From an uncultured Bacteroidota bacterium (GTDB lineage Bacteria; Bacteroidota; Bacteroidia; Chitinophagales; Chitinophagaceae), in assembly GCA_903874055.1 (NCBI GenBank), contig CAIQQR010000079.1:1-64000 (forward strand): a stretch of 64,000 nucleotides of DNA, written 5' to 3'. Below are positions 21,908 to 25,336 of this stretch, piece after piece. Every line of letters starts with the position of its first letter. The stretch's first letter is position 1. The translations under genes and the position numbers were made by a program. A model generated the notes under the pieces. The model was not told where the DNA came from and did not search any database. It saw only the letters and a program-made list of their open reading frames with translations.

Positions 21908-22246
21908 ATGAGTAAGAAAAATAAAGCAGCAGGGTCCCCGTTAGTGTATAGTACCGATCCAAATTACTTACCACCAAGTGAAGAGGAAACAGTTGAAACC
22001 TTACCACCAGATCAACAGCCATTGCGTGTGATACTTGAAACAAAACATCGTGCTGGTAAAACAGTTACTATTGTTTATGGTTTTATAGGAAGTGAAGATG
22101 ATATGAACGCTTTAGGTAAACTGCTTAAAAATCATTGCGGTACGGGAGGTTCAGTGAAAGACGGTGAAATAATTATTCAAGGAGATCACCGTCAAAAAGC
22201 ATTTCAATTTTTAAAGCAAAAAGGATATAGCAAGGCTAAATTGTAG
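21908..22246 (+). CDS. SUI1/YciH-like translation initiation factor
   Basis: KTVTIVYGFIGSEDDMNALGKLLKNHCGTGGSVKDGEIIIQGDHRQK. Confidence 0.9.
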   Translation: MSKKNKAAGSPLVYSTDPNYLPPSEEETVETLPPDQQPLRVILETKHRAGKTVTIVYGFIGSEDDMNALGKLLKNHCGTGGSVKDGEIIIQGDHRQKAFQFLKQKGYSKAKL

Positions 22247-22252
22247 TCGGCA

Positions 22253-22879
22253 TTAAAAATACACTTCTAAGTTGCACTTGTTCTTAAGGTCTCTTACTAA
22301 AGGATATTGTTCGGCAATGCGATCGTATTTTTGTTTACTATTAAGACGCATGTGCAATGGAACATCTTCTTGTTCACTAGCCTCCACCAATATATCAAAT
22401 TGAATGGCCCTGTTTTGAAATTTATCCCAAACTTTCTCTAATACATTCATTCTTTCCTGCTCTACAAATTTCTGAGCTGTTAATGCGCCAACTGTAATGG
22501 TAAAGTGAGTATCGTCAATGATATTAAGTTGCGCTACTTTAAAAGTTCCTGCAGATGCATGCTTTGCATTGGCTTCCAAAACTACTGCATATTCATCCCA
22601 GCAAGTTCTCAAAATATCCATATCTAATGGAATAGATTCTTTAACCTCTTCAATGTCATATTCCTTGCCATATTTTTGTTGTAATACGGCCAGTAAATTT
22701 TTATTAGCGCCACCTGTAGAAGTGGGTGATGAAATAGCTGTTGGCTTTGCTTGTGTAATAGGAGCATCTGGCGTCGCTGCTGGTGAGTTTGTAACATGGG
22801 GTTTTGGAGCAACAGCTGGCGTAGGGGTTTCAATAACAAGTTTGGCTTCCGAGTTAACTACAATATTACTTAAAGGCAT
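22253..22879 (-). CDS. dnaX: DnaX (gamma/tau) C-terminal segment, in the -1 frame relative to the ATPase ORF
   Basis: Pro/Ala linker followed by DnaX-like C-terminal domain (KQKYDRIAEQYPLVRDLKNKCNLEVYF); frame is open back to the A9 run of the upstream ORF. Confidence 0.75.
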   Translation of the reverse strand: MPLSNIVVNSEAKLVIETPTPAVAPKPHVTNSPAATPDAPITQAKPTAISSPTSTGGANKNLLAVLQQKYGKEYDIEEVKESIPLDMDILRTCWDEYAVVLEANAKHASAGTFKVAQLNIIDDTHFTITVGALTAQKFVEQERMNVLEKVWDKFQNRAIQFDILVEASEQEDVPLHMRLNSKQKYDRIAEQYPLVRDLKNKCNLEVYF

Positions 22880-22914
22880 TATTTTCTTTAAGCGAATAGG
22901 GTAGTGTGCATCAA

Positions 22915-24054
22915 CTAGTTTTTTTTTACTATCTGGTTGTCATCCAAACTTAATTCAATTGCTTGTGCCAAAAAGTTCAATTTTATAATGGCCATTTCAA
23001 CATGCAGCCTTTTATTGCGTGCTTGTTTAAATTGAATCTCAGCTTCGTTTAAAATATTAAGCGCACTCACTAAATAGGGAGTGCTAATTTCTTTTGCGGT
23101 ATTAATGTATTGATCTCTCCAGCCTTCAATGGATTCTAATAATGAAGCACTAGCAGGGTCTTTACATACTAATAAATTTCTGATAAAGGAGGCTAGTCCA
23201 GATAATACCATATCTCCTTCAAATCCTTTTTGATTGATTTCATCATACAATAACATGGCCTTGGTAAGGTCTTGTTTTGTTAGGTATTCGATCAATTTAA
23301 AAAAGTATTCTTCGTCTAATATGTTTAAATGCTCAAGGGTATTTTTATAAGTTAATTCGCCATTTGAAAAACTTACAATTTTATCTAAAATACTCAAGGC
23401 ATCACGCATGCAACCTTCACTTTTTTGAGCAATTAGTTGTAATGCGTTTCGTTCTGCTTTAATATGCTCCTTGCCAATAATTTCTTCTAAATGCTCTACT
23501 GTATCGTTATTGGTAATTCTTTTAAAATCAAAAATTTGACATCTACTTAAAATGGTAGGTAAAATTTTATGTTTCTCTGTAGTGGCTAAAATAAAAATAG
23601 CATGTGCAGGAGGTTCTTCCAAAGTTTTTAAGAATGCATTAAATGCACTTGCACTTAACATATGGACCTCATCCACAATATATACTTTGTATTTACCGGC
23701 TTGTGGTGCGAATCTTACTTGATCCACTAAGGTTCTAATATCATCTACCGAGTTATTGCTGGCAGCATCTAATTCGTGTATGTTTAAGCTAGCTCCTTTT
23801 TCAAAAGAGGTGCAGCTATTACATTCGTTACAAGCTTCGCCTTCCTTGGTAATATTGGTGCAATTGATGGTCTTAGCTAAAATACGTGCACAGGTTGTTT
23901 TGCCAACCCCTCTTGGTCCACAAAACAAAAAAGCATGCGCTAAATGATTGTTTAAAATGGCATTCTTAAGGGTGGTCGTTATATGCGACTGCCCCACAAC
24001 TGTATTAAAGTTTTGGGGTCTATATTTTCTAGCAGAAACAACAAAATTATCCAT
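22915..24054 (-). CDS. dnaX: DNA polymerase III gamma/tau ATPase portion (gamma-like product)
   Basis: GPRGVGKTTCARILAKTINC, zinc-binding Cys cluster, DEVHMLSASAFNAFLKTLEEPP. Confidence 0.95.
   Translation of the reverse strand: MDNFVVSARKYRPQNFNTVVGQSHITTTLKNAILNNHLAHAFLFCGPRGVGKTTCARILAKTINCTNITKEGEACNECNSCTSFEKGASLNIHELDAASNNSVDDIRTLVDQVRFAPQAGKYKVYIVDEVHMLSASAFNAFLKTLEEPPAHAIFILATTEKHKILPTILSRCQIFDFKRITNNDTVEHLEEIIGKEHIKAERNALQLIAQKSEGCMRDALSILDKIVSFSNGELTYKNTLEHLNILDEEYFFKLIEYLTKQDLTKAMLLYDEINQKGFEGDMVLSGLASFIRNLLVCKDPASASLLESIEGWRDQYINTAKEISTPYLVSALNILNEAEIQFKQARNKRLHVEMAIIKLNFLAQAIELSLDDNQIVKKN
22919..22927 (-). promoter_or_regulatory. A9 slippery run at dnaX ORF junction (AGT-AAAAAAAAA-CTAG on minus strand)
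   Basis: GTA AAA AAA AAC TAG in zero frame; -1 frame reads GTA AAA AAA AAA CTA GTT GAT... into the downstream ORF. Confidence 0.7.
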
Positions 24055-24151: not shown

Positions 24152-25336
24152 TTAGGAACCAGTAGTGTATTCCATAACAGGGTGGCGCTCAAAAGGATGT
24201 GCTGCTGTATCAAAAATATGTCTAAATGTGACCATATGTCTGCTTGGTTTTGCCCCTAAGCTTTTGTAAATATTTACCATTTTTGGATTCCAGTCGGCAG
24301 CCCAACCCATTTCATATTGTTGGTATATCTTAATGTCTAAAATCGATAAATAACTTGAATAAATTAAAAAGCTATCAATTCCTAAGGATTGGTACTTTGG
24401 TACTACACCAAATGCCAAACCTGTTAAACGATTATTTTGACCTCTAAACTTCATCCATAATAAATGAAGCTTTTGTTTTAACCCCAATTTGCCATCAAAA
24501 AATTTAAAATATTGATTTACATCAGGGATATTAATAAACATGGCAATGGGTTCTTCCTTATAATAGGCAAAACATATAACACGAGGATCCATGACTGGTT
24601 TAAGAGATGTAAACAATTTCATGATTTGATCAAAAGTAATGGCCTTTGCTTCACCATGTTGCGCCCATGCTGAATTATAGATTGTTACAAAATCCTGCGC
24701 GAATTTTTCTAATTGTGATTTATCTAAATGCCTTGTTTGATAATCAGGCTTCGCTTTAAATTTTTCATAGCGCTCTTTAAATTTCGGAGGCAATTCATCA
24801 AATATATTTAGTCGGTAATAATATTGATTGTAATAATTCTCAAAACCGTAGTTGGCAAATAGGGTCTCGTAGTATTCCGGATTAAATGACATTCCATACA
24901 TGGGTTCATTGTCATAGCCCTCTACCATTAAGCCCCACCATTTATCACGGTCACCAAAATTAATTGGGCCGTCCATGGCTTCCATGCCATTTTCAATCAA
25001 CCATTTTTTTGCAGTATCAAATAATAAATTTGCAACAGTATGATCGTTGATGGAATCAAAGTAGCCCACACAGCCGACAGGGAATTCAGTGCCCTTATTT
25101 ACATATTTGCTATAATAAAAAGCAGCAATACGACCCACCGTACTACCATCCTGGTCTTGCACAATCCATCTTTTGGCATTGCCGTCTTTAAATAATTTAT
25201 TTTTTTCAGGATGGAATACCTGTTCCACCTCATTGTCCAATGGACGAATATAATAAGGATTGTCTTGATTTACTTTCGCATTCAAGTTTAGAAATTCCCT
25301 AACTAGTTTGGGTGTTGTTACTTCTAAAACAGTCAT
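24152..25336 (-). CDS. Conserved hypothetical, GNAT-like
   Basis: Full-length ORF; weak GNAT-like signature near C-terminus. Confidence 0.6.
   Translation of the reverse strand: MTVLEVTTPKLVREFLNLNAKVNQDNPYYIRPLDNEVEQVFHPEKNKLFKDGNAKRWIVQDQDGSTVGRIAAFYYSKYVNKGTEFPVGCVGYFDSINDHTVANLLFDTAKKWLIENGMEAMDGPINFGDRDKWWGLMVEGYDNEPMYGMSFNPEYYETLFANYGFENYYNQYYYRLNIFDELPPKFKERYEKFKAKPDYQTRHLDKSQLEKFAQDFVTIYNSAWAQHGEAKAITFDQIMKLFTSLKPVMDPRVICFAYYKEEPIAMFINIPDVNQYFKFFDGKLGLKQKLHLLWMKFRGQNNRLTGLAFGVVPKYQSLGIDSFLIYSSYLSILDIKIYQQYEMGWAADWNPKMVNIYKSLGAKPSRHMVTFRHIFDTAAHPFERHPVMEYTTGS

Follow-up and report, generated by a model that had tools for sequence, protein, structure and literature searches.

A candidate poly-A slippage cassette at the gamma/tau junction of dnaX in a Chitinophagaceae genome, with a junction A-run kept in most sampled Bacteroidota

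The dnaX gene in the window (the whole 64,000-nt stretch of DNA analyzed here) was found to be split at a run of nine A's, and comparison with related sequences suggests that a poly-A slippage cassette of the Thermus type forms its gamma/tau junction, yielding both gamma and tau (probability about 0.66). On sequence level, A9–A11 is kept at this junction in most of the sampled Bacteroidota, where the tau tail is encoded in one frame and stops usually end the other two within a few codons. What is conserved is the slippery run; whether it is A9 or A10 sets only which product is encoded by the template frame.

The split dnaX locus in the window

The window comes from a draft assembly of 2.13 Mb in 131 contigs (99% complete) belonging to Chitinophagaceae (Bacteroidota), and the named relatives of the source genome are likewise Chitinophagaceae, including Sediminibacterium. 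The 5′ ORF of dnaX (ORF1; 22915..24054, minus strand) was identified as DnaX by a TIGR02397 match (E 1e-134), and its Pfam matches comprised DNA_pol3_delta2, the ATPase lid and gamma3 domain III. It encodes a gamma-like clamp-loader ATPase of 379 aa. At the junction the minus strand reads CAG ATA GTA AAA AAA AAC TAG, with an A run of exactly nine (22919..22927, minus strand), and the protein ends in VKKN at the TAG that closes the template (gamma) frame directly after AAC (22915..22917, minus strand). This exact reading agrees with the sequence-only reading of the stretch, which had described a dnaX split at an A9 run with a gamma-like ORF ending in KKN.

The -1 frame is free of stops from CTA (22918–22916) through 221 codons to TAA (22255–22253). 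This tau tail (22253..22918, minus strand) consists of a linker and the DnaX C-terminal domain and contains an ORF of 208 aa (ORF2; 22879 to 22253) with an ATG at 22879. A fusion of the two parts comprises 379 + 221 = 600 aa and is tau-like; both the stop-free -1 reading into the downstream ORF and the long form of roughly 600 aa had been predicted correctly. ORF2 matched the gamma/tau model PRK14971 only over the C-terminal part of the model (430–614; E 8e-12), which confirmed that the downstream ORF carries a DnaX-like C-terminal domain, and a search of solved structures with the tau tail returned chance matches only. The locus thus contains an AAA+ clamp-loader ATPase, domain III and the tau C-terminal part, as expected for the DnaX gamma/tau family. 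The third frame is closed by a TGA (22911..22913, minus strand) that is conserved in Chitinophagaceae and, in the relatives with A10, belongs to the -1 frame. The two non-tau frames of the window are closed after 1 and 2 codons.

Two neighboring genes were recorded. A SUI1/eIF1-like gene on the plus strand (21908–22246; PF01253, E 1e-19) is convergent with dnaX and ends 6 bp from the dnaX stop, and directly upstream of dnaX a 394-aa protein is encoded on the minus strand (24152–25336) for which no Pfam match was found at 1e-5.

Conservation of the A-run and of the reading frames around it

A9–A11 was found at the gamma/tau junction in 202 of 229 Bacteroidota dnaX loci (66 with A9, 126 with A10 and 10 with A11); the other loci contained A7–A8 (seven loci) or no run (20 loci), and no run was longer than A11. 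The start of the run occupies all three codon phases among the 229 loci, which shows that the run is not the product of one fixed peptide. Among the genes on the Chitinophagaceae side that encode KKK at this site, 107 of 115 use AAA AAA AAA. Other Lys codons are AAA in 74% of cases in run-bearing genes, from which all-AAA sites would be expected at about 44%, compared to 97% observed with A9 or more; this comparison is confined to genes with at least 7 A's in the run and is uncorrected for relatedness. Two loci contain A10 at the junction despite a strong preference for AAG elsewhere in the gene: 0 AAA and 14 AAG codons in L230, and 2 AAA and 10 AAG codons in L229. The codon counts indicate that the run is constrained even where AAG is otherwise preferred. 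Genes with a long open frame and no A-run were also found in several Bacteroidota clades (L200, L213, L214, L216–L218, L220, L222–L224, L231, L266–L269, L272, L276, and L277); since these clades lack the run, gamma is not made by this route everywhere.

Past the run, the frame of the tau tail stays open; in each of the other two a stop follows within 5 codons (median), compared to 15 elsewhere in the same genes. In 101 of 116 continuous Chitinophagaceae genes the -1 frame is closed almost directly by TGA, compared to a mean of 31.8 and a maximum of 43 such genes in 300 synonymous shuffles, an effect size that is overstated in so far as relatives were counted separately. This TGA arises from a T-ending codon before GAT, GAC, GAA, or GAG, and the amino acid encoded by that codon varies (V, I, L, T, A, and others). 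The same wobble base under varied amino acids argues for selection on the -1 stop. Closure of the +1 frame in Chitinophagaceae showed no enrichment (69 genes compared to 64 expected). Frame closure biased towards -1 in this way is as compatible with -1 ribosomal shifting as with slippage in which A's are added.

Across evenly sampled genomes of the phylum, the short open frame of a split gene was found in 44 of 146 genomes with a dnaX match, not counting one further case at a contig edge (G156). Of these 44, 43 were read, and each was confirmed as an A-run split followed by an open tail. A FastTree phylogeny of 190 loci required at least 15 changes of state between split and continuous genes. 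Some groups were split throughout (f5/g12 in all sampled members, f8, and f26), and others combined both states within a single genus; for example, L254 is split with A9 and L260 and L262–L264 are continuous with A10. The main set contained 47 split loci, all with at least A9 and with a long tail. The shift needed to join the two parts is -1 (one added A) in 45 of them and +1 in the remaining two, L121 from a metagenome assembly and L155.

Closer to the window, in a sample of 61 genomes of the same genus, nearly every dnaX was a single frame of about 600–650 codons, including that of the 99%-identical G048, and the junction in the nearest group reads GTA AAA AAA AAA CTA GTT GAT, with ten A's. 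Split genes were found only in the window (G000), in G052 (L012, A9 followed by TAA) and in G036 (L034, A9). As nearly all congeners have A10 and a continuous gene, the window is without one A relative to its sisters, either really or by assembly error. Within the family Chitinophagaceae, 6 of about 150 genomes were split, with one contig-edge case set aside, and the split state was shared by two species of one genus (L313 and L314). Outside the main set, L312 from a single-contig genome (G298) showed a dnaX split at a run of only eight A's (GTT AAAAAAAA CTTAACTAG), which points either to an error in the consensus or to a run that works at this shorter length. In a Chitinophagaceae metagenome-assembled genome (L083), the Lys stretch at the usual position is interrupted (CAA AAG AAG), and the same gene carries an A9 run at a more downstream position, which may be a relocated slippery run or a chance occurrence.

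Slippage, sequence error and ribosomal frameshifting as possible explanations

The proposed mechanism is slippage of RNA polymerase on the run, which would generate mRNAs with A9, A10, A11 and so on, of which those in register with the tail would give tau and the others gamma. The length of the run in the template would then decide the default product only. For the window, A9 would give gamma by default (379 aa, ending in KKN) and one extra A would give tau (600 aa, containing KKKLVDAHYPIR), while in the sisters with A10 tau would be the default and gamma would be made via slippage; a contribution from -1 ribosomal frameshifting at A AAA AAN is possible. If gamma and tau are both made whichever state the gene is in, gain or loss of a single A would be tolerated, which would explain the repeated frame flips. 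Extended to the phylum, the comparison rather favors the view that in most Bacteroidota dnaX is frame-agnostic: A9–A11 would be selected as a slippage device, lineages would swap between tau and gamma frames cheaply by single-A changes, both subunits would be made via RNA polymerase slippage, and the split would not represent damage.

The sequence-only reading had treated A10 and one continuous ORF in relatives as the mark of a homopolymer sequencing error, and this is what nearly all congeners showed. It does not sink the idea of slippage, however, because the A-run is conserved in split and continuous genes, the split state is stable in whole clades and the assembly has its other homopolymers in frame. 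An assembly or sequencing error, or a minor population variant, in a species that truly has A10 and one ORF is nevertheless a serious, if unlikely, alternative for the window itself: the nearest relatives are continuous with A10, homopolymers are error-prone, the assembly is a draft of many contigs, and the genus sample contained only three split genes. Against this, the seven other A9/T9 runs located within ORFs of the assembly, as found by pattern search, were all in frame (7/7), by which a general homopolymer error in the assembly was ruled out, and independent splits are present in many genomes, with whole groups split and two species of one genus alike. Among the A9/T9 sites of the assembly, dnaX is the only one where two long frames meet out of phase. 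The 55 ORFs of the window contain one A9/T9 run, that of dnaX, compared to 11.1 ± 3.3 by codon shuffling; such runs are thus avoided in coding DNA here, and the dnaX run is not due to chance. Runs of 8 or more A or T in the window ORFs were likewise fewer (8 compared to 26.9 by codon shuffling), suggesting that slippage is costly elsewhere in the genome. The likelihood given to an error overlaps with that given to the cassette, since an error would leave the cassette in place, with tau as the default product, and alter only that default. Far less probable is a true frameshift mutation with loss of tau, in which gamma would suffice and ORF2 would be a relic or be translated from its own ATG at 22879. 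Within the genus clade, only 5 of 34 sequences had an ATG at the ORF2 start codon, and an independent start of ORF2 was ruled out on this basis. Comparison of the tail with that of G048 showed 56 synonymous and 26 nonsynonymous codon differences (86% identity for ORF2), which indicates that the tail is under purifying selection and not in decay. Loss would also be at odds with the role of tau, which in studied bacteria connects polymerase and clamp loader.

An alternative to slippage of RNA polymerase is -1 programmed ribosomal frameshifting of the E. coli dnaX kind, acting on A AAA AAC in the window and on A AAA AAA or A AAA AAG in the relatives. Under such frameshifting the shift would give tau in the window, and in the relatives with A10 it would give gamma ending at the conserved TGA. 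Several observations are in line with this: the heptamers are present in frame, the large majority of split loci require a -1 shift (45 of 47), the -1 TGA is the most strongly kept stop in continuous genes, and tRNA-Lys UUU was the only tRNA-Lys found. A single tRNA-Lys UUU is the condition under which shifting on A AAA AAG works in E. coli, and an argument against ribosomal shifting from two tRNA-Lys genes was dropped, as only UUU was found. Shine-Dalgarno-like words upstream of the run were slightly more common than at control sites (24 of 145 loci compared to about 10%), which also speaks for ribosomal shifting; none was seen in the 18 nt before the run of the window. The earlier statement that no clear hairpin follows the run did not hold, as a local hairpin, a further point in favor of ribosomal shifting, is predicted about 13–62 nt past the run (22855..22906, minus strand, approximate limits; -12.2 kcal/mol, z -3.3). 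This hairpin is kept in the nearest few relatives only and is probably no conserved stimulator. RNA structure beside the run was not enriched over control sites in a folding test of low power, in which the E. coli dnaX stem itself was not significant, and a conserved stimulatory structure was set aside as improbable for lack of any excess over these sites. Ribosomal frameshifting is further weakened by a run of at least 9 in all codon phases, which goes beyond what a 7-nt heptamer needs, by the +1 splits (L121 and L155), which a -1 shift cannot serve, and by the weakness of A AAA AAC in E. coli, where A AAA AAG is a much stronger site (PMC5009743). On balance, ribosomal frameshifting seems unlikely. 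RNA polymerase slippage appears likelier from the sequence comparison, given the run of at least 9 in every phase, the splits in both directions, the apparent lack of a conserved downstream structure and the precedent in Thermus; it counts against slippage that only two +1 splits were found, one of them in a metagenome assembly.

Relation to known systems and meaning for Bacteroidota

For dnaX of Thermus thermophilus, PMC1088944 and PMC5009743 describe work by Larsen (2000) in which RNA polymerase was reported to slip on A9. The window resembles this system in the gene, the run of nine A's, the early stops in the non-tau frames and the proposed gamma/tau outcome: at least 9 A's were found in the dnaX sense strand at the junction, with early stops in both non-tau frames. 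It differs in that the Thermus template frame encodes tau, whereas that of the window encodes gamma and requires one added A for tau, and slippage was measured in Thermus, whereas the window is known from sequence alone. The gamma/tau interpretation and the parallel with Thermus, both put forward from the window itself, appear well, if indirectly, supported by the relatives.

A two-ORF dnaX was described by Antonov et al. (2013; PMC3711429) for 17 genes in 12 genera, 12 of them with poly-A and nine with A10, for which slippage was predicted; the runs were A7–A10 and the arrangement was reversed. This description was repeated by Atkins et al., and the main text of Antonov et al. (2013) names Chlorobi species only. 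The window shares with this type two adjacent ORFs encoding N- and C-terminal parts of DnaX in a -1 relation, a poly-A run of 7–10 (here A9) at the junction and a tau that needs recoding. Thus, the split arrangement in the window is already a known type, published in 2013. As far as the type is described there, the window differs in that its split is a one-base variant in a mostly continuous genus and that the run is conserved in both states across the phylum: in relatives the run is kept, the split state being found in three genomes of the genus sample and in 44 of 146 in the phylum sample, with most other congeners continuous. No account of a run conserved across Bacteroidota in both split and continuous genes was found in the literature covered, which was largely limited to freely readable papers and to the main text of Antonov et al., and priority is therefore uncertain.

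As in the -1 frameshift of E. coli dnaX, gamma and tau would be made from one gene at an A-rich slippery site with a nearby -1 TGA. Unlike the E. coli site, which consists of A AAA AAG with an upstream Shine-Dalgarno sequence and a downstream stem-loop, no conserved stem-loop was seen, the run contains at least 9 A's and the template frame of the window is reversed. Frameshifts at homopolymers that are partly restored by slippage have been reported for Blochmannia/Buchnera, Shigella mxiE and Citrobacter tssM (PMC5009743, PMC1088944, PMC4256274). These genes resemble the window dnaX in a frame that is broken at a homopolymer and mended in part of the transcripts, as proposed here; unlike them, the dnaX run is old and conserved, and the role of the short product is known in other bacteria.

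If the proposed mechanism is true, a core replication gene of a large phylum relies on slippage for one of its products. The annotated dnaX frame would then be nearly arbitrary, and about 30% of the sampled genomes would be annotated with a broken dnaX or with gamma only. The phylum would also offer a natural series of A9, A10, and A11, in split and continuous genes, for measuring slippage against template length. Finally, the mechanism would bear on the need for gamma, as the run and the stop behind it have apparently been selected in lineages distant from both Thermus and E. coli.
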